45,271 nt of DNA from a virus: IMG/VR virus record IMGVR_UViG_3300015202_000018, positions 1 to 45,271 of that record; one strand, given 5' to 3'. The notes beneath the pieces were generated by a model. The model made no database searches. It was not told where the DNA came from and saw only the letters and a list, made by a program, of their open reading frames with translations. This document shows, in pieces, positions 12,030-43,967 of this stretch. Each line of letters starts with the position of its first letter. Position 1 is the first letter of the stretch. The translations under genes and the position numbers were made by a program.

Positions 12030-12036
12030 TATGCAA
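12030..12036 (-). promoter_or_regulatory. TTGCATA motif, candidate phage promoter (site a)
   Basis: The minus strand reads TTGCATATATTCTTGTG, between the terminator at 12051-12079 and the ATG at 11987. It is one of six TTGCATA-N4-6-YTTR sites in gaps upstream of minus-strand genes in this window. No consensus -35 box is visible. Confidence 0.45.
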
Positions 12037-12050
12037 GTATTGTGATAAAA

Positions 12051-12079
12051 GAAAAGAACTGACGCTTTTAAACGCCAGT
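12051..12079 (-). terminator. Rho-independent terminator after the 201-aa gene
   Basis: On the minus strand ACTGGCG and CGTCAGT pair as a 7-bp stem with one wobble around an 8-base loop, followed by the U-rich run TCTTTTCTTTTAT. It ends the leftward unit of the three paralogous genes at 12.1-14.2 kb. Confidence 0.75.
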
Positions 12080-12103
12080 CTCTCCAGTTATGATAAACGA
12101 CTA

Positions 12104-12709
12104 TTAATCGTTATCGTAATCTCCGCCTTCAAGCTCTTCAATGCGTTCTTCGATTGCATCTTCAATGAACTCACGGTCTTCAAGCTCGCCGTATGCCTCA
12201 AGTTCATCAATGTCTTCACAGTCAAAGATATAATTAAGAGCAGCACGTTTGTTCATTGGCAGACCAGATGGATGTACGCCAACTTTAGCCTTGCCTGAAC
12301 GATGCTTGCGCTTCTCACGGGCACGTTCGATTTCAGTTACTTCGTCCTCAGTTACGATGCGAAGCTTACGGTCCATTAAGCACTTCTTGAAACGCTTGTT
12401 CTCAAGCTCTGACTTATCAAATGGACGAACCTCATCTACTTCAAAGACTTCTGCTGTGTCTGAATCGGCTGTCTTCAATGAGATTGGGGGAACGTGGAAT
12501 TCTGCACCTGAAATATTGTGAACCCAAACAGTATCGCCAGAACCCTTCACTGCTGATAATTGACTCTCAATTTCATCGCGATTGTTGTCAAGGGCACTCT
12601 TGCGAGCCTTTGCTCCACCACGGGTGCCTTCTGATAATGCCAATGAATCTTCTAGTTCAGCCTTTGCTGCTGAAGTTTTACCGGACTTTACTCTCTTAAT
12701 TGCGGCCAT
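12104..12709 (-). CDS. Head/neck-region protein with SGAE-VPP domain, 201 aa
   Basis: The central domain (residues about 60-120) has the signature VWVHNISGAEFHVPP, then DSDTAEVFEVDEVRPFD and SELENKRF. It is shared with the 264-aa product encoded just upstream, so the two genes are tandem paralogues. The flanks are charged: a basic N-terminus (IKRVKSGKTSAAKAEL) and a very acidic tail (EEELEG-type, ending GGDYDND). The ATG at 12709 overlaps its neighbour's stop region and uses AGAGGC as ribosome site. It lies downstream of the capsid gene cluster, where head-completion proteins often lie, but no family is recognised and the role is open. Confidence 0.7.
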   Translation of the reverse strand: MAAIKRVKSGKTSAAKAELEDSLALSEGTRGGAKARKSALDNNRDEIESQLSAVKGSGDTVWVHNISGAEFHVPPISLKTADSDTAEVFEVDEVRPFDKSELENKRFKKCLMDRKLRIVTEDEVTEIERAREKRKHRSGKAKVGVHPSGLPMNKRAALNYIFDCEDIDELEAYGELEDREFIEDAIEERIEELEGGDYDND

Positions 12710-12710
12710 T

Positions 12711-13505: not shown

Positions 13506-13522
13506 TCGTATTTTCCCTTTTA

Positions 13523-14236: not shown

Positions 14237-14268
14237 ATTCTCTGCTCTTTTTCTAGTCGCTACATAGT

Positions 14269-14385: not shown

Positions 14386-14386
14386 T

Positions 14387-14588: not shown

Positions 14589-15383
14589 TTAAGTCTCGCT
14601 CACTATCACAGAAGCTAACTCAATTTTATACTTCATGCACTCCGGTACATAAGGGGTAATCAAACTTGCTAATTTACGAGCTTCATTGGCTGAAAAAAGC
14701 AAAGAAGTTAGCTTGCGTCCTACAGATTGTAAAGTGCAATGAATATTCCATCTTTTTTGAAACCAATCTAAAATCATGCGCTGTTCAGTTTCCGTAAAAT
14801 TACATGTAGCTAATTTCATATATGAAGAACGATTACCTTTATGCCTAAAATAGCTGCCGTCATCACAATGCCAAAAAGCTAAAGCTAATTTATCAATATT
14901 CTCTAGTATCTCCGGTGTTACTACCTTGACCCCATTATTATAAAACTTATGATACATTTCTGTAAATAAAGGATGTGCCACAGTGGTTAATTTCGCGCTT
15001 TTATAAAACTTGCTATTGAACCCTGAAGTTTTTTCATTTTGCAATGTTACATCGTTTGAATTCAACCAAGGTTTTAGTATTGCAAATTTATATCTTAAAT
15101 AATCAATTTGACTTTGCCCATGCTCTATACGCAAACAAGCATTTGTGCCATTTTTTTGAATAGATAAATTACCATCACCTAATAAAGTCCCATATACTAA
15201 TGATTTTTGTTCATCAGTAAATACATTGGGAAATCTTTGTGATTTTTCTATTCCAAAAGCGTATAAAGCTCTACGAACAGTATTAAGACCTACACCATAT
15301 AATTTAGCTAATTCAGGTGCGTCAATTCTGTTCATTATATAATTTTGATAGAGTTTTTGCTTGTCTTCTAATAATTTTGCCAT
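14589..15383 (-). CDS. LAGLIDADG homing endonuclease with N-terminal helix-turn-helix, 264 aa
   Basis: Residues about 20-45 form a helix-turn-helix (DAPELAKLYGVGLNTVRRAL). Two LAGLIDADG helices follow: YGTLLGDGN at 64-72 and LALAFWHCDDGSY at 166-178, each with the acidic residue that coordinates metal. The length suits a single-chain, two-motif enzyme of the LAGLIDADG_2 type. It would cut a specific DNA site and promote copying of its own gene. It is free-standing, placed after the capsid gene's terminator, with its own promoter (TTGCCA, 17 bases, TATAAT) whose -10 box ends only 9 bases before the ATG. No Shine-Dalgarno is visible, so a leaderless mRNA is likely. Unlike the other two free-standing endonucleases here it is intact. 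Confidence 0.9.
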   Translation of the reverse strand: MAKLLEDKQKLYQNYIMNRIDAPELAKLYGVGLNTVRRALYAFGIEKSQRFPNVFTDEQKSLVYGTLLGDGNLSIQKNGTNACLRIEHGQSQIDYLRYKFAILKPWLNSNDVTLQNEKTSGFNSKFYKSAKLTTVAHPLFTEMYHKFYNNGVKVVTPEILENIDKLALAFWHCDDGSYFRHKGNRSSYMKLATCNFTETEQRMILDWFQKRWNIHCTLQSVGRKLTSLLFSANEARKLASLITPYVPECMKYKIELASVIVSET

Positions 15384-15392
15384 AGTAATTAC

Positions 15393-15421
15393 ATTATACT
15401 ACATTAGTTTAATTTTGGCAA
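15393..15421 (-). promoter_or_regulatory. Sigma-70-like promoter of the LAGLIDADG gene
   Basis: On the minus strand TTGCCA (15421-15416), a 17-base spacer and TATAAT (15398-15393) form a near-consensus bacterial promoter. The expected start point falls at or within a base or two of the ATG at 15383, predicting a leaderless transcript. Confidence 0.8.
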
Positions 15422-15434
15422 GTCTATGGAGAAC

Positions 15435-16404: not shown

Positions 16405-16989
16405 TTATACAGTTGTTAATTTGAATTCGAGCAAACCGTTACCATCAACGGCCTTGGTGCAGATACCAACTTGAACGGTACCAGTTGCTGAAAGGAAACC
16501 ATCTGTTGTGGTGCTTGCGAACAATGCGGTACCTGGAACATAAGTTCCGGCATCGAACTGGTCAGTTGCGTATAAACCACCACGGATGTACATTGTTACG
16601 AAACGAGCATCTGCGTTTACGTTGGTAGCAGTTTCGTCGCGAAGCAAGGTTGTGGTTGGAATTGTGTTTGCTGGGATTACATTGCTTGTGCTACCAGTTG
16701 TGCCGTAGAGCGAGTTGCCCTGACCTGGCTGGTTGAACAATGATTCGTCGCCGTATGCGCCTGGATTTGATGGAAGGTAGTTAGCATTTGACATACCAAC
16801 AGTCGTGCTACGACGGTCTGCAATGATGCCGAATGCGACTGTACTGGTACCAGCAACGAACTTAGTTCCTTTGCCGTTGTTGTCCAAAGCTCCAACCATA
16901 CCGGCTTCAAAATAAACTGGTGCAGAAGCATTGAATGGTTGAACTGGGAACGAGGCTGGTGTGCCTTCTAGAATAACTTTAAGTGCCAT
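16405..16989 (-). CDS. Capsid decoration-like protein, 194 aa
   Basis: This is a beta-rich protein of low charge with Gly/Thr/Ala-rich loops (VYFEAGMVGALDNNGKG, VAFGIIADRR, FVTMYIRGGLYATDQFD). The gene lies between the scaffold-like and major capsid genes, the position occupied by head decoration proteins in lambda-like clusters (protease, scaffold, decoration, capsid). A decoration or head-stabilising role is inferred from this order. It has a perfect AGGAGG site 8 bases before the ATG at 16989, consistent with high expression. A hairpin at 17082-17121 precedes it. Confidence 0.7.
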   Translation of the reverse strand: MALKVILEGTPASFPVQPFNASAPVYFEAGMVGALDNNGKGTKFVAGTSTVAFGIIADRRSTTVGMSNANYLPSNPGAYGDESLFNQPGQGNSLYGTTGSTSNVIPANTIPTTTLLRDETATNVNADARFVTMYIRGGLYATDQFDAGTYVPGTALFASTTTDGFLSATGTVQVGICTKAVDGNGLLEFKLTTV

Positions 16990-17081
16990 TTTATGACGCC
17001 TCCTGGTTTTAAAACCGATAAAGTTTTGTGGAAAACTTTTACAATAAGATACTTATTCGAGCTTTATTTATTTGTAACAAA

Positions 17082-21924: not shown

Positions 21925-22344
21925 TTATGGAACGTGGGGCAAATGTAAATGAATTGGATGAAAAGGTGTAGGCGCTGAAGTTGGGTTTACAGAAGCGGAA
22001 ACAGCCGATGGCCCTGGGTGCGTGATATATGAGGGGATGATTGCACTAGCGATACCTAAAAATGCAACGAAAATAGCGCCACCAACATATTTTACACCAT
22101 TAACGAAGCCTTTTCTAAAAGTCGTATTTGCGGTTTCGGCGTGTTCCAATTTTTTAATCGACTCAGCTTGTGCCACAGCAGTTGTCTTAATTTCATCAAA
22201 ATGAACTTTCATTTCGACTCGATAATCGTTCATATCGTCTTTAGTAACAACTGTTTTGTTCAATTCATAAACGTCGTCGCGGGTCGCTCGTTGCTCGTGC
22301 AAAATAGTTTGGAGAAGCAAGCTGTTGTTATCGTCAGTAGGCAT
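21925..22344 (-). CDS. Coiled-coil plus single membrane-segment protein, about 139 aa
   Basis: A hydrophilic helical region with heptad-like spacing (LHEQRATRDDVYELNKTV, HFDEIKTTAVAQAESIKKLE) is followed by one membrane segment (VGGAIFVAFLGIASAIIP) and a Pro/His-rich tail. This layout resembles XhlA-type holin-associated proteins, but tail or virion membrane proteins can look the same, so holin is only a possibility. I prefer the ATG at 22344, which has GGGAGAG upstream; the in-frame ATG at 22362 has no ribosome site. A TTGCATA motif at 22392-22398 lies about 50 bases upstream, back to back with the plus-strand Rad52-like gene. Confidence 0.65.
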   Translation of the reverse strand: MPTDDNNSLLLQTILHEQRATRDDVYELNKTVVTKDDMNDYRVEMKVHFDEIKTTAVAQAESIKKLEHAETANTTFRKGFVNGVKYVGGAIFVAFLGIASAIIPSYITHPGPSAVSASVNPTSAPTPFHPIHLHLPHVP

Positions 22345-22391
22345 TTTTCCAAACTCTCCCATTCCAAAAATAAAAGACTACATAAGGTACT

Positions 22392-22398
22392 TATGCAA
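22392..22398 (-). promoter_or_regulatory. TTGCATA motif, candidate phage promoter (site b)
   Basis: The minus strand reads TTGCATAAGTACCTTATG, in which CATAAG-TAC-CTTATG is also a perfect inverted repeat. It lies upstream of the coiled-coil/membrane protein gene. Confidence 0.45.
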
Positions 22399-22430
22399 TA
22401 TTTGACGAAGAAATAACTATAGCCAAGTAC

Positions 22431-22487: not shown

Positions 22488-23000
22488 ATGACTGATTCAG
22501 AAACATATAGTAAACTTAGCGCACCCATTAAAACTCTAGAACGGCCAGGTAAGGGCGGTGGTAATCCTCAAAAGTATGTTCCGCACGGAAACGTAACTGA
22601 TAGAATCAATGAAGTTTTAGGACTTAATTGGAGCTTTGAAATTTTACGAGAATCCCTGGTAAACCAAAGCGAAGTATATGCCGTTGTTCGTATTCACTAT
22701 CGTTTGGAAGATGGTACTCCTTATTTTAAGGATGGCATTGGTGGACTTGGCTACCAACCTGCGGTTGGTTTAGGAAATCAATTTAAAGGAAGTGTTTCGC
22801 TAGCTTTAGTTAAGGCAGCATCACTTATGGGAATTGATATTCGAGAAGACGAATCCACTACTGAGCAACATGAAAAAATCAGAGAACTTGTCTTAGCACT
22901 TGGCGGTAAAGCCCCAGGCGATGAAAGACTTAAGGTAATGATGTTCAACGAAGCCAATAAGCTTATCGAAGAACTCGATAAGAAAGTTAAGTCCCAATAA
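22488..23000 (+). CDS. Rad52-family single-strand annealing protein, 170 aa
   Basis: The sequence fits the Rad52/22 (Sak-like) core. KYVPHGNVTDRINEVLG and NWSFEIL are followed by a beta hairpin (EVYAVVRIHYRLEDG), a glycine-rich turn (FKDGIGGLGY) and a helix with KGSVSLALVKAASLMGID. Such proteins form rings that anneal complementary single strands in phage recombination. The C-terminal ~50 residues form a charged helical tail. It is one of only three plus-strand genes here and sits alone in the head module, with its own TATAAT box, operator-like repeat and terminator, so it is regulated apart from its neighbours. AGGAG lies 14 bases before the ATG, a little far. Confidence 0.85.
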   Translation: MTDSETYSKLSAPIKTLERPGKGGGNPQKYVPHGNVTDRINEVLGLNWSFEILRESLVNQSEVYAVVRIHYRLEDGTPYFKDGIGGLGYQPAVGLGNQFKGSVSLALVKAASLMGIDIREDESTTEQHEKIRELVLALGGKAPGDERLKVMMFNEANKLIEELDKKVKSQ

Positions 23001-26002: not shown

Positions 26003-27169
26003 TTATGTGTTATCAACTCCGCTAAAATTTTGCGTATCACCTTCCATTCCCATCCCGCCTGAACCACTGTTCGAAACGTTAAAGTAATGCTCGGTGTCCT
26101 CTGTCTTATTGTAGCGCAATTTCTTCCGATATTTCGTTGAGTCATCATTAACTTTGTCATTTTCGTTACTGAAGTCACCCTTGCCGTCTGTCATGCCCTT
26201 GCCAGTGTATCCAGTTGTCTCACCATTAGTGTCCAAATATTCGTCATCATCTTGTCCACTGTTTGGATTAGATGAAGGAGTTACAGGTCCATAATCTGCT
26301 TTGCGAATAAAGAAACGCAAAAGTCCAGCCGTATTATCAATCCCGCTGTAATTTTTTGATTCTTCAGTTTTTTCGTTACCTTCAAGAGGAGCATCACCCG
26401 CGCCTCGTCCGTCGCTCATTTGGTCGCCATTGCCAAAATCATGACTTACACGGTCTGCTTTTACATCATTTTCATCTGGATACATAACGTCTCCAACATT
26501 TGAATGATTCTTATAGTCCGTGTCGGGATTTGAAGCTTTTTTAAATTGTGACTGTGCAATACTGCTTGCAAAGAATGGTCGCGATTTCAAGTGAGCAAAT
26601 GTTTTACCCTTATTGATATCAGGAGTCGCTTTACCTTCTTCGTTTTCTTTTATTTTATCTGTATCAACAACACCTGGGTCGCGAGCAATTGAAACGTCCG
26701 CTTCATTTGTTGGGTGCGGCGTATTATTGATAACCGAATCCATGCCTTCTTGTTCTGAAAGCTCTTCGCGTGGATGACCGTCTTCCATCGTTTGCGGAGA
26801 ATCGGCAACGCCACCTGATGTTGAATTCTGTAAAAAGAAGTTAGTTTCATCGGCTGTTTTTACAAAGAAGCGTAGTAGACCAGCACTCACGCCATCGCCG
26901 TTATTTGCATGATTATCATCGACTAACGCCTCATTAAAAGGTGCTTCACCCGATTCATTTTCTACTTCATGACCTTGTTCGCCCAATGGCGTAACAGGGT
27001 GGTTTGCTTGCCCCCCAGCGGGTACGGAGCCTTGACCGTCACCATTTGATGGCTCATTAGTATTTATGCCGTTTTGTAATGTTTCAGAGCCGTCTTCTGT
27101 GCTTAGGAAATCAGAACCAGAAGAACCACCACCATATGATTCGGCAATTTTATGTAATTTTTTCGCCAT
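26003..27169 (-). CDS. Acidic low-complexity protein with AGLLRFF repeats, about 388 aa
   Basis: Start chosen at the ATG at 27169 (MAKKLHKIAES), which has GGAGG 8 bases upstream; the frame extends further but without a ribosome site. The protein is Asp/Glu/Asn/Gly-rich and probably disordered. It contains a repeated hydrophobic patch (SAGLLRFFVKTADE and TAGLLRFFIRKADY), a repeated SG[IV]DNT (the second copy is the C-terminus) and RVSHDFGNGDQ, which has a counterpart in the 1131-aa protein (RVSHDYGNRSR). Immediately upstream of the portal, it may be a scaffold, portal-binding or ejected protein; nothing in it names a family. Confidence 0.65.
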   Translation of the reverse strand: MAKKLHKIAESYGGGSSGSDFLSTEDGSETLQNGINTNEPSNGDGQGSVPAGGQANHPVTPLGEQGHEVENESGEAPFNEALVDDNHANNGDGVSAGLLRFFVKTADETNFFLQNSTSGGVADSPQTMEDGHPREELSEQEGMDSVINNTPHPTNEADVSIARDPGVVDTDKIKENEEGKATPDINKGKTFAHLKSRPFFASSIAQSQFKKASNPDTDYKNHSNVGDVMYPDENDVKADRVSHDFGNGDQMSDGRGAGDAPLEGNEKTEESKNYSGIDNTAGLLRFFIRKADYGPVTPSSNPNSGQDDDEYLDTNGETTGYTGKGMTDGKGDFSNENDKVNDDSTKYRKKLRYNKTEDTEHYFNVSNSGSGGMGMEGDTQNFSGVDNT

Positions 27170-27437
27170 GTCCGGTGCCTCCTGGTGTAATAACAATCCA
27201 ACCGATGAAGTCTTCGTTATTTGTAAGAGTATCTGGATTTTGAGTTGCAAATAAGAGCTTTTCTAAAACTGGCAATCGCAGAAGCATAGCTTTTATCTGC
27301 TCACCAACGTCTTGTAAAGCTTCGGTTTCGCCAAGAATCAAAGCTATTTCTCTTTCGATATGAGCCGTTTCAAGGATTGTATGACAATCCTCTATTTCTT
27401 CTTTAATAATTTCTTCACGAGATTTACGTAAACGCAT
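27150..27437 (-). CDS. Small helical protein, 95 aa
   Basis: Highly charged, helical N-terminal two thirds (REEIIKEEIEDCHTILE, HIEREIALILGETEAL), then a more beta-like end (DFIGWIVITPGG). No family recognised. The last 20 bases overlap the start of the 388-aa gene and contain its ribosome site (GGAGG), so the two are coupled. It is the first gene of a leftward run that includes the portal; a TTGCATA motif lies 42 bases before its ATG. Confidence 0.65.
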   Translation of the reverse strand: MRLRKSREEIIKEEIEDCHTILETAHIEREIALILGETEALQDVGEQIKAMLLRLPVLEKLLFATQNPDTLTNNEDFIGWIVITPGGTGHGEKIT

Positions 27438-27478: not shown

Positions 27479-27485
27479 TATGCAA
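27479..27485 (-). promoter_or_regulatory. TTGCATA motif, candidate phage promoter (site c)
   Basis: The minus strand reads TTGCATATTTGTTTAGG, beginning right after the glycosyltransferase stop and 42 bases before the ATG at 27437 that opens the portal unit. Confidence 0.45.
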
Positions 27486-28607
27486 TTAATGCATTTTTAC
27501 AATGTTTTCAGTATACGAGCCAGGTTCACCATCAGGATAAACACCAATACTAGAAAGCGCGTTTATCCATTGGTTTACTCCCAAAGTAATACTATGATTT
27601 TCAATTACATTATCATAATTATTTTTAGCGACAGTCTTTCTTAATTGTTCATCGGCAATCAAGGTCTTCAAATTTCTTTTCCAATTTGAATTTGAGTCAG
27701 CTAAATAACCGACATTGTTTTTAGTACTTCTAATAAATTGAGAGTAAGGACCGTAATCAGAAGCCACAAAAGGGATGTTTGACATACCGTATTCGATTAG
27801 CTTAATATAACTCTTGCTGCGATTAAAAGCCACGTTCAATAGCGGTGCAATAGCAATATCAATATCTGATTTATCTAATAGTTCGTAGTATTTTACTACT
27901 GGATTGCCACCTTCGGCGTCATAAAATAAAGCTTTACCGTTGTGAATTGGAAAAGTATGCCCTGTGTAATGAATTCTTTTTCTCATTTCTAAAGGAAACA
28001 AATTAGAATAATTTTGTCCAACAAAAACAAACCTCGTTTGAGGGAATTCTTTTAAAATTTCTGTCACAGGCTTAATAACCTGCTGCAAGTCGTCTAAGTG
28101 GGTGGCCGAACCAGCCCACCCTAATCTAATAGTGCCATCTACCCGTGGTTCCTTCGGAACATTTTTAAAATCCGATGGGTCTATGACATTATAACAGACA
28201 TGAACGTTTGATGCCCACTTCTTATAGTTATCTCCTAAAGGAGGCGTCGAAACAGTTAGAAGGTCCGAAAGCTCCATAAAGGATTCCATAGCCTTTAATG
28301 CCTGCCCGCCCCTAGGGTAACTTGCCCTAGCTGGGTTATTAGGGGGGAGTTCGTGGAAATAATCGTCTAACTCGAACACCAGTTTGCCCCCTCTAGCCTT
28401 GAAATCCTTGGCTAAAGCCAAAATTCCCTCATGATGCTGCCTTTGAAGGACCAAAACATCTTGAGGATTCAATTCGACGTTCAATTTATTGGTCAAAATT
28501 ACTTCGAATCCCAGTTTGCTTAAGTGCTTATAGGGCATTGCACATCTATAATAACCGCACCCCAGGAGGTCACCTACGCCTATTACTATCTTGCTTCTTT
28601 GACTCAT
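27486..28607 (-). CDS. Glycosyltransferase, GT-B fold (GT4-like), 373 aa
   Basis: The N-terminal half has a Rossmann start (KIVIGVGDLLGCGYYRCAMP), VLVLQRQHHEG and VFELDDYFHELP. The C-terminal half has the GT1-type nucleotide-sugar region: RLGWAGSATHLDDL, TRFVFVGQNYS, DIAIAPL, and the loop KLIEYGMSNIPFVASDYGP, whose E-x-G-x-x-P pattern is characteristic of GT4-like enzymes. It would transfer a sugar from a nucleotide donor, perhaps to virion proteins, phage DNA or the host surface; the acceptor cannot be inferred. It starts the leftward run upstream of the portal unit and faces away from the plus-strand gene at 28778. Confidence 0.85.
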   Translation of the reverse strand: MSQRSKIVIGVGDLLGCGYYRCAMPYKHLSKLGFEVILTNKLNVELNPQDVLVLQRQHHEGILALAKDFKARGGKLVFELDDYFHELPPNNPARASYPRGGQALKAMESFMELSDLLTVSTPPLGDNYKKWASNVHVCYNVIDPSDFKNVPKEPRVDGTIRLGWAGSATHLDDLQQVIKPVTEILKEFPQTRFVFVGQNYSNLFPLEMRKRIHYTGHTFPIHNGKALFYDAEGGNPVVKYYELLDKSDIDIAIAPLLNVAFNRSKSYIKLIEYGMSNIPFVASDYGPYSQFIRSTKNNVGYLADSNSNWKRNLKTLIADEQLRKTVAKNNYDNVIENHSITLGVNQWINALSSIGVYPDGEPGSYTENIVKMH

Positions 28608-28675: not shown

Positions 28676-28704
28676 TTGACTTTTAGATTAAATACAGGTA
28701 TATT
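28676..28704 (+). promoter_or_regulatory. Sigma-70 promoter of the winged-helix-like gene
   Basis: TTGACT at 28676-28681, a 17-base spacer and TATATT at 28699-28704 form the best host-type promoter on the plus strand of this window. The transcript would have a leader of about 70 bases. Confidence 0.85.
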
Positions 28705-28777: not shown

Positions 28778-29371
28778 ATGGCAGTAGCAGACCACGAAAC
28801 CCCGGAAACAGAAATGTCCATCAAACTACCCGAGAACGAATTTGCGTTCTTACAAGAAATTCTGAAGAACCCTATCGGCGACAACCGATTTGAAATCAGC
28901 AAAGAAGCACCGAAGGCGGCTTTCAAGGGCCGAGGTTCACCGAAGACCCTGGCGCAAACTGCCAAGAACAAACTAATCGAACGCGGCATCATCGAATCAA
29001 TTCAAAGGGGCGGAGCGCAATCACGAGCGATTGTCCGAGTTTTGAATAATAACGTCGAAATGTCGAACGAAGGAAGAGGCCGAAAGGTAACCACAGGGCG
29101 TCGAGCATCTTCCGAACCCAAGAAACCAGATGGACGGCGGAAAGCCTCGGCAACGAACCGCACTGAGCGCACACCTGTGCGTGGCAAACGCGAAGAGCCA
29201 GCAACGCCCGGTCCTGGTCGGCGAGGAAAATACTCCCTTGGCGGAGTTTTCTCCAAAATGCGCGACAATTACGAAAACCTTGATGCTTTCCAAAACGAGC
29301 TACAAGGGCTGGAGAAACGATATCCAAACTCATTTACCAATTTTCTGAAAACGCTCCGGGGAGCAGCCTAG
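28778..29371 (+). CDS. Winged-helix-like basic protein of an autonomous plus-strand unit, 197 aa
   Basis: Residues about 15-90 look like a winged helix-turn-helix: LPENEFAFLQEILKNP, then SPKTLAQTAKNKLIERGIIE and a wing-like strand (SRAIVRVLNNN). A long basic linker follows (GRKVTTGRRASS, KKPDGRRKASATNR, GPGRRGKY) and then a helical C-terminus (VFSKMRDNYENLDAFQ). It is likely to bind DNA or RNA. The gene is richer in G+C than its neighbours, lies on the opposite strand, and has its own consensus promoter and perfect terminator, the layout of a phage moron. It may act early on host or phage transcription; no named family is recognised. Confidence 0.75.
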   Translation: MAVADHETPETEMSIKLPENEFAFLQEILKNPIGDNRFEISKEAPKAAFKGRGSPKTLAQTAKNKLIERGIIESIQRGGAQSRAIVRVLNNNVEMSNEGRGRKVTTGRRASSEPKKPDGRRKASATNRTERTPVRGKREEPATPGPGRRGKYSLGGVFSKMRDNYENLDAFQNELQGLEKRYPNSFTNFLKTLRGAA

Positions 29372-31143: not shown

Positions 31144-32151
31144 TTAGTTCTCTGCCCAAAAGAATGTTGTATAAGCTGATACGGCATTTGTTGGGTCTTC
31201 GTTATTTGCTACAACCTGGAAACGAACATTTACTCCGTCACCAGCAACCGTATTAAGTTCAAGTGCATTTTGTGTTTTGAATTCATATACCAAATTTGAA
31301 CCTGAAGTAAATACTGAGAAAACAGTTGTTGCAACAGCAGATACATTAACAGTCTGCACGTCAAAGCGCATTGGAGCAGATGAAGTAACAATTAATTGCT
31401 GTAATGAACCAACTTTTGTACTAGTAACAAGTGGCGATTGAAGAGTTTGTGTGCCACCATTGGCAGCAACAACTGATGTACTGATAATTTGCCCTGAAGA
31501 TTTTAATGTTCCGGCAGAAGGTGCAGTTGAGCTTGTAAATAATGGATTACCAGATGATGTACCTGGTCCAGTAATTTGTACGCCATTAGTTGTGCCGGGT
31601 GTTGTCTGGTCGATGCGGAAGTTACCGACAATATTTGTGCCAGCATTTAGTCCAACAGTACCGAGTGAATTTAAACCAGTTGGCAATGCATTTGTAATAG
31701 AGGTAAGAGCAGTTACAGTTGTAACAGTTGCAATATTACCAATTGAATTAGTACCAGTTGGAAGTGCAGCATTAATTTGTACGCCGTTTGTAGTGCCCGG
31801 TGTTGTTTGGTCAATTGCAACTTGTCCAACTTTAGCAGAACCAGCAGTTAACTGTGTGAATGAAGGTGAACCTATTATTGCACCAACACTTGTTGATGCA
31901 AGTGATGTAAATAATGGGTTAACATTAGAAGCGCCAGGTCCCGTAATTTGAACGCCATTTGTAGTACCTGGAGTTGTTTGGTCAATACGGAAGTTTCCAA
32001 CAACTGCTGAACTAGCAGTTAATAGAACTGATACTGCACCAGATGCACTAACGGCAGCTTTATTCACGCCGCCAGCATCAACTATAGAAACTACTACATC
32101 GCCAGCATTTTTTGTTTTAATTACTAAAGGTGTTAAAATGTCAGTAGGCAT
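31144..32151 (-). CDS. Repetitive virion-like protein with TPGTTNGVQI repeats, 335 aa
   Basis: A low-charge Thr/Ser/Ala/Val/Asn-rich protein. Three near-identical units carry [FQ][RA]IDQTTPGTTNGVQI, each preceded by VGNFRI or VGQVAI and twice followed by TGPG and NPLFTS. The C-terminal ~110 residues form a separate beta domain (QQLIVTSSAPMRFDVQTVNV, NVRFQVVANNED). The DNA repeats are also conserved, so the copies are recent. It is probably a trimeric fibre or head-fibre-type protein; the function is inferred. The ATG overlaps the stop of the 82-aa gene as TAATG, with the ribosome site (AAGGGAG) in that gene's last codons. Confidence 0.7.
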   Translation of the reverse strand: MPTDILTPLVIKTKNAGDVVVSIVDAGGVNKAAVSASGAVSVLLTASSAVVGNFRIDQTTPGTTNGVQITGPGASNVNPLFTSLASTSVGAIIGSPSFTQLTAGSAKVGQVAIDQTTPGTTNGVQINAALPTGTNSIGNIATVTTVTALTSITNALPTGLNSLGTVGLNAGTNIVGNFRIDQTTPGTTNGVQITGPGTSSGNPLFTSSTAPSAGTLKSSGQIISTSVVAANGGTQTLQSPLVTSTKVGSLQQLIVTSSAPMRFDVQTVNVSAVATTVFSVFTSGSNLVYEFKTQNALELNTVAGDGVNVRFQVVANNEDPTNAVSAYTTFFWAEN

Positions 32152-32399
32152 TATTTGTCTCCCTTATCAAGAAGTAAGTCTTTATTAAGTAATTCTTTTT
32201 CGGATTTTTCTAAATCTTTAATTTGTTCTCTTACTTGTGTCATTTCGTTCTCATAAAGAACAAAATTTTCACTAATACGGGAAATTTCATGTTCTAATTC
32301 TGCAACTCGAACAGACTGAGTAAATTTAGATAATTCAATCTGTTGAAGTCTTAAATTTAATTGCATTTTTTGCAATTTTAGACTAGATAAATCTGCCAT
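32151..32399 (-). CDS. Coiled-coil protein, 82 aa
   Basis: Heptad-like Leu/Ile spacing throughout (LKLQKMQLNLRLQQIELSKF, VAELEHEISRISE, VREQIKDLEKSEKELL) predicts a long coiled coil, probably a dimer or trimer. It is coupled by TAATG to the 335-aa repetitive protein, so it could be that protein's trimerisation or assembly chaperone; this is inferred from the gene pairing. AGAGGA precedes the ATG at 32399 and a TTGCATA motif lies 38 bases upstream of it. Confidence 0.75.
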   Translation of the reverse strand: MADLSSLKLQKMQLNLRLQQIELSKFTQSVRVAELEHEISRISENFVLYENEMTQVREQIKDLEKSEKELLNKDLLLDKGDK

Positions 32400-32436: not shown

Positions 32437-32443
32437 TATGCAA
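32437..32443 (-). promoter_or_regulatory. TTGCATA motif, candidate phage promoter (site d)
   Basis: The minus strand reads TTGCATACTTTATTTAAG in the 55-base gap between the 280-aa gene and the 82-aa coiled-coil gene. Confidence 0.45.
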
Positions 32444-32454
32444 TTTTAAACATA

Positions 32455-33297
32455 TTAAAACACACCAAGTAATGTTCCTGAATAACTTGCTGTTCCAGAG
32501 CCTGTATTTGTGACTGTTATCGAAACAATATCATTAACATTTAATAATAAAGAACCTGGTATTTCAAATTTAATATCCGGTTTTAAAATATTAGTCATAA
32601 ATCTAAAAGATGGAACATTGTTAATATTTACAAAATAAACACCATTATCATCACCAGATGCTTGAATACCTGATAAGTTCCCAGAAGATGCTAAAACAGT
32701 AAATGTAGACAATGCAGAAAAGCCACCAACTGGGACATTTGGTGACGTTGCCGCAACATGTTTTAAATAAGATGGCGGGGTTGCGGGTGGGTAAATGGTA
32801 AATAATAAATTTCCAAAATAATCAGATGTTCCAATACCAGTATTTACTACTTGTAAAGAAACAACATTGCCAGATTTGAAAGCCAATTCGCCTGGTAGTT
32901 TATAATCAATTTGTGGGCTGGCTGAATTTGTTGTAAAACGAAAAACTTGAATTCCGTTTACTAACAATAAATAAGAACCATTAGCATCGCCTGATGCTTG
33001 AATGCCTGTTAACCATGCACCCGAAAAAGGAACGTTATAAGATGCTACAGTAGCTGAAGAATTTGGCGCAATTCCTGTAGCTAATCCATTTACCCGCATT
33101 ACTGATAAAGGAATTAAATTACCATTACCGCCACTACTGCTGCTTCCAGAGGTTTGACACGTTACAGGAACATTAACTGGCGTAGGCGTTTGAGTTGTAA
33201 CAGCCGGAATAATATTAATACTACGGGGATGAAAAAAAGTCACGAACGCCGGAAAGTTAATATTAACGACTGTTTCTAGCGGGACAATAATAGCCAT
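32455..33297 (-). CDS. Virion-like protein with internal domain duplication, 280 aa
   Basis: The N-terminus repeats the strand motif of the 410-aa protein (INFPAFVTFFHP, INIIPAVTT), followed by a Ser/Gly linker. Two homologous ~80-residue domains follow: LTGIQASGDANGSYLLLVNG with FRFTTN and PGELAFKSGNVVSLQVVNTG, then LSGIQASGDDNGVYFVNINN with FRFMTN and PGSLLLNVNDIVSITVTNTG. The duplication is clear. Such beta sandwiches suit a decoration or fibre protein. AAAGGAGA lies before the ATG at 33297 and a TTGCATA motif 51 bases upstream, so it probably starts a transcription unit. Confidence 0.75.
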   Translation of the reverse strand: MAIIVPLETVVNINFPAFVTFFHPRSINIIPAVTTQTPTPVNVPVTCQTSGSSSSGGNGNLIPLSVMRVNGLATGIAPNSSATVASYNVPFSGAWLTGIQASGDANGSYLLLVNGIQVFRFTTNSASPQIDYKLPGELAFKSGNVVSLQVVNTGIGTSDYFGNLLFTIYPPATPPSYLKHVAATSPNVPVGGFSALSTFTVLASSGNLSGIQASGDDNGVYFVNINNVPSFRFMTNILKPDIKFEIPGSLLLNVNDIVSITVTNTGSGTASYSGTLLGVF

Positions 33298-33347: not shown

Positions 33348-33354
33348 TATGCAA
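33348..33354 (-). promoter_or_regulatory. TTGCATA motif, candidate phage promoter (site e)
   Basis: The minus strand reads TTGCATATTATACTTAG, in the gap between the nuclease and the 280-aa gene. It overlaps an inverted repeat, TATTAT-ACTTAG-ATAATA. Confidence 0.5.
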
Positions 33355-33373
33355 GAAAGCTACAAAAAATTAG

Positions 33374-34289: not shown

Positions 34290-34994
34290 TTATTGCTTTT
34301 TATCCCACACTTCTAATAATTCTTCAACTATAGTTTCTCTATTTTTTACTGAATTAATAAATTTTAATTCGTTATAAGCATTTATCCAGGAACCCATGTT
34401 GTCATCTGGTAACTCATCATCTTGATAGTACTTATACATGGTTTCTGAACTGAATCCATATGATTCTTCAAATCTCTTTATTTGATTATTTAAATTGTCA
34501 ATACGCTTTTGTAAAGCTTTTGTGTTTTTTCCCCTCTTGCGTTTTTTGAAAGGTTCTGGTAGACTTGGTAAATTCATCAGGGTCATAATTAACGACAATT
34601 TAGAAGCGTCTTTTTTACTAATATAATCTGCAATTGTTTTATGCGGATTCTTGATTCGACCTTCTTGGTCTATAATGTGCAGACCATATGAAACCATATT
34701 CTCCAAAAACGAATTGCTCTCGTCGCTGTAGTCTAGGTTTAACAAACTGCGCCAGGTATATCCTGATTTTAAAGTGGAAACGGTCAAAACATCTTGTATT
34801 TTTTCCTGAGGCATTAAATGATTGCAAATTTGTTTGATAAATTCTGTATAACTTTCTATGAATTTTTCAAGATTTTCAGGGTCAAAGCTGCGTGTGAAAA
34901 CTCTGTATTCATCACCTTTTGCAGCCAAGTCAAACTCTTCTTTTTTTACATAGATAGAAACTTCACCAGTGGTAGGTTCATATGAAAATCGCAT
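34290..34994 (-). CDS. Hypothetical protein, 234 aa
   Basis: A soluble, charged alpha/beta protein. The N-terminus is beta-like (MRFSYEPTTGEVSIYVKK), the centre helical, with a basic patch (FKKRKRGKNTKALQKRIDNL) and a coiled-coil-like stretch, and the end acidic (EELLEVWDKKQ). No family recognised. Located between the small beta-barrel gene that follows the terminase and the Cas4-like nuclease, it may belong to DNA packaging or end-processing. GAGGA precedes the ATG at 34994. The 76 bases downstream contain a TATATATAAATAAATA stretch that could serve as a promoter for the nuclease. Confidence 0.65.
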   Translation of the reverse strand: MRFSYEPTTGEVSIYVKKEEFDLAAKGDEYRVFTRSFDPENLEKFIESYTEFIKQICNHLMPQEKIQDVLTVSTLKSGYTWRSLLNLDYSDESNSFLENMVSYGLHIIDQEGRIKNPHKTIADYISKKDASKLSLIMTLMNLPSLPEPFKKRKRGKNTKALQKRIDNLNNQIKRFEESYGFSSETMYKYYQDDELPDDNMGSWINAYNELKFINSVKNRETIVEELLEVWDKKQ

Positions 34995-35286: not shown

Positions 35287-37680
35287 TTACTTCCATGCGG
35301 AAGAGCCTCCGCCAGCTTTAAATGCACTACCTGTAGGCCAGGCTTTTGCCTTTGGTAATTTAGACATAGACTTGGCAAAAAACGCAGTTCTTACAGCGTC
35401 TACAATGTGGTCTGGGTAAACAATACTCTTTGAATAAATAATAGTGCCACCAGAGCCAACTGAATATGTGTGATTACGGAATTGATTTTCGATTTCATCA
35501 TCAATATCAACACCAGGCATAAGTACCATTCGGTTTTGTGCGGCCATAACAATGCTATCTGTCATAAATTGTTTTACAGGAACAAGAACAGTTTCACCAT
35601 TGAATTTACTTGAAACTTGAACTTTATTTGCAAAGTTTACAGCATGTAAACGTTTTTCAAAGTTGTGCTGCTTAAACTTATTGTGGCCTTGTTCTTTAGC
35701 TTTCAAAACCTGTTCGACCATTAAACCGTTTGAACCTTGGTCCATGCCAAGTGCTTCAAACAAATAAAAATTATCTAACAAAGCAATAATATCAACCTGA
35801 GTTAAATATGGAATATGTTCCATGTGAATTCTCAAAATTAATTTCATTACACCATTCCATTCTTCAAAAACTACGAATTCTGAAGGGTCGGATTGGTAAC
35901 CTAAGTCGGCCCCGAACCAGTAACGTTTGTTCTCTGTTCTTCCAGGGAACTTACTGCGTAACCAAATACCCAATTGGCTATGACCAATTTTCGCAATATC
36001 TTCTGGTGTTAAATTAATGCGTTCGTATTCATCTGGGTAAGGCTTACGTTTTCTACCGTATTCTGAATTGAAAATACGATAAACAGGCGTCTTAATTGGC
36101 ACTTCTGGGTCCGCTGGATTTGGTCTTTCATCTTCCATTCTGAATACCCATTCAAAATAAGTCCAGTCGAATACACCTTCTTCAACAGTTCCCCATGCTG
36201 CTTCAATTTCATGTTCATAGACAGAACGTGGATGTTCATTTAAGAATTCGCGATTGAATTCTGGTGTAAAGTTTGGATTTTCTTTAGACGGAATATGAAA
36301 TTCTTGATAGTTCCAATCAGGTTTAGTACAATTAGCAACGCCATAACCATTGACACAATAAGAATGGTCATTACCAACAGTTAAATTATAGACCGTAGTC
36401 GTGTTATTTATTGAATCATATTGTTTAATAGGAACATATAAGAATTCGCCTTCAACCTGTCCTAAGAATACTTTTTCAGGATTCTTTACAGCAGTTAAAG
36501 GAATGGCAAGAAAATCACCAATACCTAATTCACTAATGCGATGGTATGTTGGTTTAACTGGTTCTAATCCAGTATGTTCACCATGTAAAACGCAAAGACT
36601 TCTATTTTTCCAAACATATTTGGAACAAGATTTACAATAACGTTCTATCTTACGTAAAGCCATAAATCTATGGCTAGAAGTGGCGGTGATAACTTGGTCA
36701 TTTAACGTTGTCATGAATGAAATTAGCTTACCATTATACTCGCGATTCATCGTCTCGGTAACTGGTTCCGGTTTACCATAACGATTTAAAACAATATCGC
36801 CGTTAATGATTGCTTGAATTGGTTTATTGCTGCCATCAACCATCGTAACAGGAGTATCTTCAGTAAAGCATGCATTGTAAAAATGTTCACGCTTACCAGT
36901 AGGAGTGGACGACAAAATGACCAGGCCATGTTCGCCTGCGTTAATAGACGTAGCTTTTTCAGCCTCGAAGAAAACAGGAGGCATGTAATCGGCTTCGTCG
37001 TAGAGTTTATAATCAAAAGTTTTGGAACGAGCAGTTTGTCCACCAGCACCAGGACCACGGAAAGTAATTGTCGCTTCTTCGGTCCATCCTGCAATTTTGA
37101 AAACTAACTCGGGGAAAGGATGTAGTTTCTTAACTAAAGAACCTTCTTCCATTGCGGCTGATAATTTATCAGAGGCGGCAACGAATTTCATTACTCGTTC
37201 AAAAATAGTACGAGCTTTATCGGCATCGGCGGAACCAACAATGATTTTTGCTCCACGAACAAATGGCTCATCAACTTCCGTCCAACCTGTTTCGTTAATT
37301 GTTCCATCAGGCTTTAAAGTTCCAATCAATAAATGGTCTTTGAAACGGCGTGGTTTTGTATAGTGAATGGGACGACAAATGGCTAAAAATAATGCGGCTA
37401 TCGCGAGACATTCAGTTTTCCCAGACTGACGACCAATGCGCCATGCAAACTTTTGAATAGGTTTGCCGCGCAACTTGGCCTCATGATAATCATCAGGATA
37501 ACAATAGGAATTATCAACACAGCCTAGTAATAAATATTGATACCAAGCTTGCTTTCCATTATTTTTGTTAACCATTGGACGCCAGTTAAATTCTCGTTCA
37601 GCCCAAAAAACTGGTTTACTCAGCTTACCAAGATGATAAAGATAATTTAAACGTTCCTCTTTTTTTGATGCTATCGACAT
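35287..37680 (-). CDS. terL: Terminase large subunit with in-frame mini-intein, 797 aa precursor
   Basis: The N-terminal ATPase has a Walker A (RIGRQSGKTE, 81-90), a Walker B (YKLYDEADY, 224-232) and the coupling motif SSTPTG (257-262). The C-terminal nuclease has WFGADLGYQSD (Asp 592), GMDQGSNG (Asp 647) and YPDHIVDAV (Asp 757). Residues 271-450 are an intein inserted right after the coupling motif, giving a mature protein of about 617 residues once spliced. It packages DNA through the portal. The ATG at 37680 has AGAGGAAC upstream. No small terminase lies next to it; the 224-aa protein at 44.6 kb is only a possible candidate. Confidence 0.92.
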   Translation of the reverse strand: MSIASKKEERLNYLYHLGKLSKPVFWAEREFNWRPMVNKNNGKQAWYQYLLLGCVDNSYCYPDDYHEAKLRGKPIQKFAWRIGRQSGKTECLAIAALFLAICRPIHYTKPRRFKDHLLIGTLKPDGTINETGWTEVDEPFVRGAKIIVGSADADKARTIFERVMKFVAASDKLSAAMEEGSLVKKLHPFPELVFKIAGWTEEATITFRGPGAGGQTARSKTFDYKLYDEADYMPPVFFEAEKATSINAGEHGLVILSSTPTGKREHFYNACFTEDTPVTMVDGSNKPIQAIINGDIVLNRYGKPEPVTETMNREYNGKLISFMTTLNDQVITATSSHRFMALRKIERYCKSCSKYVWKNRSLCVLHGEHTGLEPVKPTYHRISELGIGDFLAIPLTAVKNPEKVFLGQVEGEFLYVPIKQYDSINNTTTVYNLTVGNDHSYCVNGYGVANCTKPDWNYQEFHIPSKENPNFTPEFNREFLNEHPRSVYEHEIEAAWGTVEEGVFDWTYFEWVFRMEDERPNPADPEVPIKTPVYRIFNSEYGRKRKPYPDEYERINLTPEDIAKIGHSQLGIWLRSKFPGRTENKRYWFGADLGYQSDPSEFVVFEEWNGVMKLILRIHMEHIPYLTQVDIIALLDNFYLFEALGMDQGSNGLMVEQVLKAKEQGHNKFKQHNFEKRLHAVNFANKVQVSSKFNGETVLVPVKQFMTDSIVMAAQNRMVLMPGVDIDDEIENQFRNHTYSVGSGGTIIYSKSIVYPDHIVDAVRTAFFAKSMSKLPKAKAWPTGSAFKAGGGSSAWK
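36331..36870 (-). mobile_element. Mini-intein in terminase, 180 aa, with Cys-cluster insert
   Basis: The element starts with Cys (CFTEDTPVTMVDG), has a block-B TxxH-like SSHRFMAL, a block F VYNLTVGNDHSYCVNG and ends VAN before Cys +1 (CTKPDW). It has no endonuclease domain. Where one would sit there is a zinc-finger-like segment, YCKSCSKYV followed by SLCVLHGEH (Cys 349, 352, 363; His 366 or 369). The penultimate residue is Ala rather than the usual His, which can slow or change splicing chemistry. It is inserted between coupling motif and nuclease, where loss of splicing would inactivate packaging. Confidence 0.88.
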
Positions 37681-40412: not shown

Positions 40413-40425
40413 TGCTAAATTCCTT

Positions 40426-43400
40426 TTACTTTGAAAAGCGACGTTCGGCTTCGGCCATAATTGTATGTTCAGAATAACCCATATCAAGAAGAGCATCTAC
40501 TACTAGTTCAAATTCGGCTTGACCTAGGCCAGCGGTAATTGAACGAAGTTCATTTGCTTTTGAAGCATATCTGTCGTCATTCTGGATTTTATCTGCAAGG
40601 TCGTCGTTTCTTTTCTTCTTGTATTCATCACCTAGTCTACCTAGTGGTGAATCATTACGCAATTCTTTACGATTTTTATTACGCTCTTCTTTTGATGGAA
40701 GCTCTTCAGCTTCTTCAGAATTGACTGGGCGTTTTTGGAACAAGTTTTCGTCATTAGTTTGATTTCTCTTAGGAGCAATTTGACTTTTTGAAGTACTATT
40801 TTCTAAATTAGTAGCAGCATCATCAAGACCTTCTGAGGCATTACCTAAGTCACGAGTTGTACCTCTGGTATCTCTGTCGCGCTGGTTAATACCTTTTGCA
40901 ACGTCATCATGTGTTGCATGAAGATGTTGTGGCAACATTTTCTTACGCTGCTCATCAGATAAATGAGGTGTCATTCCATGAAGACCTTCCATTAACGAAC
41001 TAGAGTCTTGTCCTTCATTTACAGGATTGCCTTCTTCATCAAATTCGGCTGCTTTCGGATTTGATAACTGATTTACTAATTGGTCAATATTACGCTGCTT
41101 ATCAGGCGGGACACTTTGTTTGTTTGTAGGAATAGCGCCATTACCATTATCATTGGTAAATTCTTTAGCATTATCTAAACCGAGAATGTCTTGTGATGGC
41201 GTACTGTCCCACTTTGCCTTTGTTTCTGGTGTTGCTGGCTTGTGGTCGTTATCTGGATTATCAACTGGGACTCCACCGCTGTTGCGAAGCTTACCGGCAA
41301 AGCCTTTTGCTTTGCCCGCAAAGGCATCAAAGTCTGAAACTAATTTAGCATGAGCCTTTTCGCGGTTTGCTGGCAAGCGGTCAAAGGTTGATTTAGGCGC
41401 AGTAAATTTTGGACCTGATGGAGACGTATTGCCGCCAAAAAATTCACCTGGATAATGCCCATGTGCCATGCTCTTTGCAAGTTCTAGGCTCTGGTCTTTG
41501 TCGTGTGCAATCGCGCCAACTTCTGGATGGTCTGCGCTCATTGACTGAACCATACCATGCCATGCATCTGGGTGAACCTTATCAAAGATTTGCTCTGGTC
41601 CCACTTGCTGCTTTGCGCCGCCGCCACCAGGAGCCTTTTTAGGTGCTACTGGGGCTGGAGTTGCTGCGGCAGGCGCAGGAGGAGCATCCATTACTGCTGG
41701 TTCAGCAGTTTTCAAGAAATTATATGCAGCTTCTAACGCAATAGCCAATTTTGTTTCGCGTGTTTCTGTTGCATAGTTATCGTTGATGAAAGGCATTAAT
41801 GATGCAGCTTTGTTTGCAATTAATGAAGCTTTTAATGCATTGGGTAATGCATGTTCCATATCAGCAAGAGGTGCATAACCGCCGCTGCCATTAGAAGGTT
41901 TTGCTACTCCCATATGCGGTTTAACAGAGTCAACTGCTTTTTGAGCAACTGGCTGGGCAGATGAAGGTAACTTGCCAACAGCTTTGTCAATAAGGGTTTT
42001 TGCGCCATTACCAATTGTATTAACGATTGCCTTGCCTAAATCACCTGCGATTACTGTTTTTTTTGACATTAAATCTAAGGCAGCAGTAATTGCCATTTCT
42101 TCATGTTCTTCTGGTCCGGCTTCGGGGAACATTTTTTCAATATGAGGAAGCATTTCAGAAGCGGTATCAAGTACTGCATTATCGGTTGTTTGAACATCTG
42201 CTGGATTTGTAGTGTCGCCACTGTTATCAAAAATAGCTTCTTGTTCATTCATCATACCGCCACCCATTGCATTGTCAGGTGATGGTTCTAGAACTGTTTC
42301 AGGAATTTCGTTGAAGCCTAGTGTGCCTTCGCCGCCTGGAACTGCTGGTTGCGCCATAGGCATAGCCATTTCGTCCACTTCATGTTCTGCATTTAATGCA
42401 GGTGGAGCTTCAATTTGAAGTTCTTCAGGTAAAGAAGCCCATTTTGCGAATGTTGAATCGGATTCAACGAAGTCAGCAAAGGCTTCCAATGACTTGGCAT
42501 GGAAAGTATTTTCTGCGGATACCATTAAGAAACCGCTATCGGTAAGATAGTAGTTCCAAGCCAATTTTGAACGGTCGCTGAATACAGCAGACATGTGATT
42601 AATTGGAGGATGGTTTTCAATTACAGTGCGGTCAACAGTAGACAATCTTACTGATTGAACCGGAAGTTGTGCGGACACTTTGCCTACAAAGCTAAAGATT
42701 TCCATCTTTGCTTTTTCAGCCTTTTGAGTTTTCAAGTTTGCTACTTGACGTGAAGCAAAGTCTGGACCAGCTTGGTCTACGCGCTTTACGCCTTCTTGTG
42801 GCATGTCGTTCATTTCTGAAGCGTCAGGCACATAGTTGTCGCCGCCAGAATATGTGCCAACGCCTTCGTTAAGCATTGGGTCTTCAGGCATTTGCTCTGG
42901 AGTAGCTTCTGGAGGTTGACCATTAATCATAGCATCAGCTTGCGCGTCGTCAAGTTTAGTAACGCCGCTATTTTCCATACCTTCGCTGTGTGCAACGTCG
43001 GCAGATGGGCCTGATTCCGAACTTGAATCAGTCATACCGTCTGCGCCGTTTGCTAGAGCAAAAGCACTTGGTGCTTCTTCTTCTAATGGCATTTGCATAT
43101 CAGCAGCAACTTGTTCGATTAGACGTGAACGATTGCCATAATCATGTGATACGCGGCCAAAACCTTCTGATAATGTTGGAGCATTCGTGTCAACTGAAGC
43201 AACTGTTCCGTGCGGAGTAACAGCAGATTCGCGCTTCATTTCACGATTTATATCTAAGTGTTCAAGAGCTTCATGAACAATTGTTTTTAAAGCCGAACGA
43301 CCAGCTTGGGCATTCGAAATTGGTGAAGAAATTTTGATTGGGACAATTAAGTCAACAAGCAAACTTGCATTTACTTTTTTGCTTAATCCAAGTTCGTTTA

Positions 43401-43821
43401 GAATGCTTGGTAGCATTTCTGCAACTTGAGCTTTAACAACTCCAAAATCAACCTGGTCCAATGAAGACTGAGCCTTGCGAATTTCACCGAGGTTACGTTC
43501 GGTGCGGTCGGATTCTTCTCCAGCAGCACGAGTCATCTTCTTACCTTCAATAAGTGCGCGATTAGACGCAAGTTTATCAGCAAGACGAGCCATGTCAGGC
43601 GATAGAGAATTAGCCTTCTTTTGCAAGAAAACCTGCTTCCAATGTGATGCATTCAAGTGACGTTCGTTGGAATTGCAATCATTGCAATGTGCCAAACGTA
43701 CATCATCTGTGCCGCGCTTGAAAGCTTCTTGGCAAATGCCGCAAAACTTCAATGAAGCGCTAGCTTTGCGCTCATTCTTGTCTCCGTCATCTTTATTACC
43801 AAATAGTCCTTTGATAATCAT
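40426..43821 (-). CDS. Very large acidic protein with N-terminal zinc-ribbon-like domain, 1131 aa
   Basis: Residues about 25-60 hold paired Cys motifs, FCGICQEAFKRG and AHCNDCNSNERH, a likely zinc ribbon. A helical stretch follows (NSLSPDMARLADKLASNRAL), then long Glu/Ala/Pro/Met-rich low-complexity regions with islands such as RVSHDYGNRSRL, SKLAWNYYLTDSGFLMVSAE and AYNFLKTAEPA. The C-terminus is charged and helical (LVVDALLDMGYSEHTI). It shares the VSHD[FY]GN motif with the 388-aa protein before the portal. No enzyme is recognised; an internal virion or ejected protein is one idea. GGAGAAG precedes the ATG at 43821. Confidence 0.65.
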   Translation of the reverse strand: MIIKGLFGNKDDGDKNERKASASLKFCGICQEAFKRGTDDVRLAHCNDCNSNERHLNASHWKQVFLQKKANSLSPDMARLADKLASNRALIEGKKMTRAAGEESDRTERNLGEIRKAQSSLDQVDFGVVKAQVAEMLPSILNELGLSKKVNASLLVDLIVPIKISSPISNAQAGRSALKTIVHEALEHLDINREMKRESAVTPHGTVASVDTNAPTLSEGFGRVSHDYGNRSRLIEQVAADMQMPLEEEAPSAFALANGADGMTDSSSESGPSADVAHSEGMENSGVTKLDDAQADAMINGQPPEATPEQMPEDPMLNEGVGTYSGGDNYVPDASEMNDMPQEGVKRVDQAGPDFASRQVANLKTQKAEKAKMEIFSFVGKVSAQLPVQSVRLSTVDRTVIENHPPINHMSAVFSDRSKLAWNYYLTDSGFLMVSAENTFHAKSLEAFADFVESDSTFAKWASLPEELQIEAPPALNAEHEVDEMAMPMAQPAVPGGEGTLGFNEIPETVLEPSPDNAMGGGMMNEQEAIFDNSGDTTNPADVQTTDNAVLDTASEMLPHIEKMFPEAGPEEHEEMAITAALDLMSKKTVIAGDLGKAIVNTIGNGAKTLIDKAVGKLPSSAQPVAQKAVDSVKPHMGVAKPSNGSGGYAPLADMEHALPNALKASLIANKAASLMPFINDNYATETRETKLAIALEAAYNFLKTAEPAVMDAPPAPAAATPAPVAPKKAPGGGGAKQQVGPEQIFDKVHPDAWHGMVQSMSADHPEVGAIAHDKDQSLELAKSMAHGHYPGEFFGGNTSPSGPKFTAPKSTFDRLPANREKAHAKLVSDFDAFAGKAKGFAGKLRNSGGVPVDNPDNDHKPATPETKAKWDSTPSQDILGLDNAKEFTNDNGNGAIPTNKQSVPPDKQRNIDQLVNQLSNPKAAEFDEEGNPVNEGQDSSSLMEGLHGMTPHLSDEQRKKMLPQHLHATHDDVAKGINQRDRDTRGTTRDLGNASEGLDDAATNLENSTSKSQIAPKRNQTNDENLFQKRPVNSEEAEELPSKEERNKNRKELRNDSPLGRLGDEYKKKRNDDLADKIQNDDRYASKANELRSITAGLGQAEFELVVDALLDMGYSEHTIMAEAERRFSK

Positions 43822-43967
43822 TATAACTTCTCCGTTGTCGTGGGTAGTTGTTCGGGTTACCCGTTAGATAACTCTTCTAAATTTTGTCGATATAATATAT
43901 CTTACAAGTATTAATATGCAGTAAAAATTCTTTTGTCACTGTATCATAGTGATATTAAAACAAGTTA
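43822..43967 (-). other. Upstream control gap of the 1131-aa gene
   Basis: The 146 bases are very AT-rich. They hold the GGAGAAG ribosome site, an imperfect AACGGGTAACCCGAAC repeat near 43850-43866, a TATATTATA stretch near 43890 and the TTGCATA-like site at 43915-43921. GTGACA, 17 bases, TATTAA (about 43916-43944) is a weak host-type promoter overlapping that site. No small gene is evident. Confidence 0.45.
43915..43921 (-). promoter_or_regulatory. CTGCATA motif, candidate phage promoter (site f)
   Basis: The minus strand reads CTGCATATTAATACTTGTAAG, a one-base variant of the TTGCATA-N4-6-YTTR motif, 94 bases before the ATG of the 1131-aa gene. Confidence 0.4.

Follow-up and report, generated by a model that had tools for sequence, protein, structure and literature searches.

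What switches on the structural genes of a huge, uncultured phage? The question is raised by a 45,271-base linear virus contig (IMG/VR record IMGVR_UViG_3300015202_000018; this whole stretch is called the window below), in which six copies of a short element, TTGCATA or once CTGCATA, lie in gaps between minus-strand genes. Their sequence, placement and conservation make these sites very probably promoters. The fuller account, in which they would be late promoters read by the host RNA polymerase (RNAP) carrying a phage sigma factor, is moderately probable.

The window has a GC content of 0.39, and 40 of its 43 genes, called by a simple script, lie on the minus strand. They include capsid, portal, head-protease, intein-bearing terminase and probable tail genes. 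The nearest named phage is Bacillus phage G (Donellivirus gee), whose gp27 is 58% identical to the major capsid protein (MCP) of the window and whose gp14 is 37% identical to its portal. Judged by these proteins, the window is a structural-block fragment of a huge phage that is a distant relative of phage G. Gene order is mostly shared with three closer relatives: G001, a 12-kb contig (MCP 87% identical); a 252-kb genome (MCP 77%) joined from G002 (130 kb) and G003 (169 kb), overlapping assemblies of one phage with 2 mismatches in 46.5 kb; and G009, a 15-kb contig. The 252-kb relative is possibly incomplete. Searches for further close relatives with portal, tail and exonuclease returned the same four phages and no others, and none was found in bacterial genomes.

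All six sites of the initial annotation were re-located on the minus strand, five as TTGCATA and one as CTGCATA. They are given here with a terminator and one further exact copy (distances are from the first base of the motif to the start codon):

12030 to 12036, minus strand: -10-like element TTGCATA, 49 nucleotides (nt) before gene 11520-11987; the G002 ortholog has TTGCGTA, also at 49 nt.
12057 to 12080, minus strand: intrinsic terminator that ends the preceding unit, immediately before the putative promoter at 12030; a hairpin and T-run are seen by eye at the ortholog.
22392 to 22398, minus strand: -10-like element TTGCATA, 36 nt before gene 21925-22362; all four phages have exact TTGCATA before the syntenic gene.
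27479 to 27485, minus strand: -10-like element TTGCATA, 48 nt before gene 27150-27437.
32437 to 32443, minus strand: -10-like element TTGCATA, 44 nt before gene 32151-32399, which has no ortholog in the relatives.
33348 to 33354, minus strand: -10-like element TTGCATA, 57 nt before gene 32455-33297, which has no ortholog in the relatives.
43915 to 43921, minus strand: -10-like element CTGCATA, 100 nt before gene 40426-43821 (1131 aa).
732 to 738, minus strand: exact sense TTGCATA absent from the initial annotation, with ATTAC at the -35-like position; doubtful.

The last copy is doubtful on two grounds: part of it lies on the stop codon of gene 731-2563, and between it and the next start there is a terminator-like hairpin (725-701). 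A weaker match that had been proposed at 44263-44269 was dropped, since it lies within gene 44234-44566, which is on the plus strand and is conserved (53% identity to its counterpart in the 252-kb relative). The six sites do occupy pre-start gaps as described; the distance, put at 30 to 95 bases, comes to 36 to 100 nt when measured from the first base of the motif. Since this distance is variable, the sites are not a ribosome signal. The claim that one site directly follows a terminator holds for 12030, which is preceded by a good hairpin (12080-12057). The YTTR said to follow the motif is loose, and among the relatives' sites only some have it, at N4 to N7.

It is the placement of TTGCATA, and not its number, that sets it apart. 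The raw count on both strands of the window is ordinary (15 seen versus 12.4 expected), and over-representation as an argument was dropped. The check for enrichment upstream of starts, which the initial annotation had called for, gives a different picture: sense-upstream gaps amount to 4.2% of the strand and hold all six minus-strand copies (p=5.5e-9; corrected for all 7-mers, 9e-5), a set that includes the doubtful copy at 732-738 and excludes the CTGCATA site at 43915. In the window, TTGCATA ranks first among 7-mers and TGCATA first among 6-mers for upstream enrichment, and among 7-mers with at least four upstream copies TTGCATA alone has every minus-strand copy upstream. Within the minus-gene set, orientation is strict (6 of 6 sense, none antisense upstream), and none of the nine plus-strand copies lies upstream of a plus-strand gene. 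The exact composite TTGCATA-N4-6-YTTR occurs five times on the minus strand and is absent from both the plus strand and the reversed control. Finally, de novo expectation maximization (EM) on 53 upstream regions of the four related phages recovers the motif, with a score of 79.4 at width 20 against at most 68.4 for dinucleotide shuffles.

The sites also persist at orthologous genes. Upstream DNA was compared in the three diverged relatives for orthologs of the site genes, with other orthologs as the control; sites 32437 and 33348 fell outside this comparison, as no orthologs of their genes were found. Exact TTGCATA is present upstream of 3 of 7 site-gene orthologs and of 0 of 38 controls (p=0.0025), and in antisense of 0 of 7. 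The pattern [TC][TC]GC[AG]TA is present upstream of 6 of 7 and 1 of 38, respectively (Fisher p=6e-6), but the degenerate form TYGCRTA was widened only after the relatives had been seen, which makes the strict figure the more cautious of the two. For the gene behind 22392, exact TTGCATA is retained in all four phages within flanks that are otherwise unalignable by eye. At 43915, the G002 ortholog carries AGTAAC-N13-TCGCGTATTAATG at 99 nt, and at 27479, G002 has TTGCGTA 37 nt before a small syntenic open reading frame and G009 a degenerate TTGAATA. The spacing from motif to start codon is likewise kept between window and ortholog (49 and 49 nt; 100 and 99 nt).

Is TTGCATA the whole element? When 16 sites from the four phages are aligned, a block with the consensus GTTAY appears at -18 to -14 from the first T, and position -14 is a pyrimidine in every one of them. 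In 5,000 trials of random re-phasing of the upstream sequences, the score of the -14 column was reached at a rate of 0.0002 and that of all five columns never; among spacings of 8 to 20, a spacing of 13 gives the most GTTAY matches. The promoter looks bipartite, with GTTAY 13 nt upstream of TTGCATA, since the aligned sites show this second, weaker element. GTTAY stands out better in the relatives; several of the window's sites match it poorly. The assertion that the sites lack a -35 thus stands for a σ70-type -35, which at a distance of 16 to 18 nt matches only 1 to 3 of 6 positions (background 2.6), and fails in that a weak upstream element is present. The positions below are those given by the 16-site alignment; a further, degenerate candidate before the capsid genes is included:

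12050 to 12054, minus strand: upstream element TTTCT, a weak GTTAY.
22412 to 22416, minus strand: upstream element TTATT, within GTTATT, a weak GTTAY with its register off by one base.
27499 to 27503, minus strand: upstream element ATTGT.
32457 to 32461, minus strand: upstream element GTTTT.
33368 to 33372, minus strand: upstream element TAATT, a poor match to GTTAY.
43935 to 43939, minus strand: upstream element GTGAC; the ortholog has GTAAC in the same place.
17054 to 17060, minus strand: degenerate candidate GTTAC-N13-TCGAATA, 71 nt before gene 16405-16989, the first of the capsid pair.
17074 to 17078, minus strand: upstream element GTTAC of the 17054 candidate.

The 17054 candidate scores poorly with the window's position-specific scoring matrix (PSSM) alone. 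At the orthologous gene, G001 and G002 retain GTTAC-N13 with an altered -10, TTGCTTA and TTTTATA, respectively.

Promoters of the host type form a contrast class. In the 252-kb relative, strict σ70-type promoters are enriched upstream of genes, with 18 seen against 2.6 expected. Within the structural block, 0 of 21 regions have a promoter of the σ70 type, compared with 24 of 161 in the rest of the genome (p=0.08). Strict TYGCRTA-type sites show the reverse distribution, with 5 of 21 regions in the structural block and 6 of 161 elsewhere (p=0.004). The window itself has two host-type promoters:

15393 to 15421, minus strand: host-type promoter TTGCCA-N17-TATAAT, before the LAGLIDADG gene 14589-15383.
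28676 to 28704, plus strand: host-type promoter TTGACT-N17-TATATT, before gene 28778-29371; the G002 ortholog also has a host-type promoter.

A plain host σ70 promoter (TTGACA-N16-18-TATAAT) was considered for the six sites themselves and rejected, as the -35 matches only 1 to 3 of 6 positions and G-C stands before ATA where σ70 wants T at -12. The proposal of a phage-specific promoter is the one best backed by the evidence: the sites are oriented, intergenic and conserved at orthologs within otherwise unalignable DNA, and they occur where host-type promoters are missing.

Three kinds of factor had been suggested as the reader: a phage polymerase, an alternative sigma and a co-activator. An alternative sigma is favoured because the 252-kb relative encodes σ70-family proteins. 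Two are adjacent, of 237 and 283 aa (G003 64660-65373 and 65377-66228), and a third, of 159 aa, has region 2 only (G003 112146-112625). They show weak similarity to FliA/WhiG and SigB/F/G models, far below the family cut-offs. Under the sigma account, the consensus would be GTTAY-N13-TTGCATA (TYGCRTA clade-wide), followed by a T-rich discriminator of about 7-10 nt, with transcription starting at the purine of YTTR. TTGCATA would serve as the -10 element, in which G-C replaces the T of position -12, and the weak -35 would be GTTAY. A phage σ70-family factor, presumably made earlier in infection and encoded by the window's own phage as well, would replace the host sigma on host RNAP, and the redirected enzyme would go to the motif sites and turn the structural genes on late. 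We infer promoter activity, start point, late timing and the identity of the reading sigma from these patterns; the -10 role of TTGCATA and the start at the YTTR purine are suggested by analogy with phiEco32.

Besides the late widening of the degenerate pattern, several results weigh against this account. EM on the window's 23 upstream regions alone places the motif on top at width 12 with a score not above shuffles, and the window by itself is too small for de novo motif discovery. Several of its transcription units have no clear copy of the motif. Across the whole 252-kb relative, the window PSSM puts 3 of its top 40 hits upstream versus 1.6 expected, which is not significant, and this poor genome-wide transfer indicates that the motif there is weak or has drifted. 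When the upstream element is added and G001 and G009 sites are used in training, the figure in that genome becomes 6 of 40 (p=0.005). As for the reader, the similarity of the candidate sigmas is low and none is tied to the motif, and no sigma gene is found in the window, a 45-kb fragment. Gene 34290-34994, which lies after the large terminase gene (TerL) near the position of phage G gp3, was tried and is not recognisable as a sigma.

The other readings fare less well. That the sites arose by chance, the motif being picked afterwards from AT-rich gaps read by eye, would agree with a raw count equal to expectation and with the window-only EM; it is nevertheless very improbable, since the 6 of 6 placement survives the 7-mer correction and the ortholog comparison on other phages' DNA (p=0.0025 to 6e-6) largely refutes it. 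Binding sites for a phage regulator, such as a repressor or nucleoid-type protein, or some other non-promoter gap signal, would fit the palindromic TGCA core and the location in gaps. An operator does not require the strict orientation observed, however, and some of the sites follow terminators, which makes this explanation decidedly improbable. Of the suggested readers, a MotA-like co-activator is unlikely. The T4 MotA box is TTGCTTA-like, so TTGCATA, at sites that have no σ70 -35, could be an activator box near -30 with a host -10 downstream. Yet no such -10 is enriched: TATAAT-like hexamers in the 26 nt downstream average 4.17 matches versus a background of 4.32, no TA...T columns are conserved there, and the conserved GTTAY sits upstream, as a -35 would.

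A host alternative sigma in place of a phage one is rather improbable. The σ28 promoter is TAAA-N15-GCCGATAA and that of σB is GTTTAA-N14-GGGTAT; like the window's sites, both have a TTA/TAAA-like -35 separated by about 15 nt from a -10 that begins with G, and the sites' G-C at -13/-12 recalls both, but their hexamers are different. The 252-kb relative has sigma genes of its own, and the motif is not enriched in more distant phage-G-like phages, which favours a reader from the phage lineage. Scarcely credible is a phage-encoded RNAP, either single-subunit or of the phiKZ/AR9 type, even though some jumbo phages with their own polymerase have short promoters with one strong element. A multisubunit enzyme is disfavoured, since searches whose controls worked found neither beta nor beta' domains in the window, in phage G or in the 252-kb relative; a search for the single-subunit polymerase (PF00940) gave no match, and neither did its control.

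A phage sigma on host RNAP would place these sites in a known kind of promoter (phiEco32, phage 7-11, T4 late) with a consensus that appears to be new. In phiEco32, the phage sigma gp36 directs host RNAP to one element, tAATGTAtA, and transcription starts 6-8 nt downstream (PMC8948821). The window resembles phiEco32 in having a short, strong -10-like element with no σ70 -35, in a handful of copies before middle/late genes. It differs in sequence, in its weak upstream element, and in that two of the candidate sigmas of the 252-kb relative have region-4-like parts; moreover, use of a phage sigma is experimentally grounded in phiEco32 and is argued here from sequence. Phage 7-11, a relative of phiEco32, has late promoters of the form GTAAtg-N16-aCTA at similar genome positions, read by SaPh711_gp47 (PMC8948821). 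These too are bipartite, and the phage sigma that reads them has region 4; among related phages their positions are kept while the sequence changes; sequence and spacing are unlike those seen here. T4 late promoters (TATAAATA; gp55, gp33, gp45) likewise consist of a single -10-like element before late genes, read by host RNAP with phage factors. However, the sites here do not have TATAAATA: the consensus of the 16 chosen sites from the four phages is TYGCRTA, with the G and C present in every one.

How far does this promoter extend? Phage G differs, as the motif is absent there (2 matches versus 8 in the reversed control), and no enrichment is seen in 73 further MCP relatives. Other phage-G-like relatives also encode sigma-like proteins, yet the motif is not seen enriched in them. 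In phage G itself, gp3 and gp69 (NC_023719 3213-3839 and 45667-46287) are annotated as sigma factors by NCBI, with support from Pfam sigma domains. An overview stating that group 3 jumbo phages, phage G included, lack sigma factors (PMC7824862) is at odds with this. Among the papers found, none describes a promoter class for phage-G-like huge phages, and a literature search gave nothing relevant on TTGCATA as a phage promoter. A tentative extension, rather doubtful at present, is that the clade has its own late sigma, different from all those characterised so far, for the bipartite GTTAY-N13-TYGCRTA, and that each phage-G-like lineage has its own late-promoter code, co-evolving with its set of sigmas. 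If so, a computational comparison of hundreds of metagenome relatives could pair each promoter code with its sigma genes. With a defined late promoter, an early-to-late switch in these uncultured phages would become testable, and early genes could be told from late ones in their genomes by rule; it would also be a new specificity for which a phage sigma could be sought.

Another upstream signal is present in a phage-G-like genome of 378,848 bases (IMGVR_UViG_3300032116_000001). About 39 copies of AAAAATCCCCt-TTT lie upstream of its genes, many at a nearly fixed 49 nt before the start codon. This repeated signal is unlike that of the window. A separate word, ATCGGATATATAAA, is also enriched there.

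Some neighbouring genes deserve mention. Divergent from the putative promoter at 22392 is a plus-strand gene (22488-23000) for a weakly Rad52/Rad22-like protein, which is kept in all four clade phages. The LAGLIDADG homing endonuclease gene adjoins the major capsid gene and has its own host-type promoter, preceded by a strong terminator (15464-15439). The intein of the large terminase gene (35287-37680, minus strand) is recognised by matches to Hint/intein-splicing domains.

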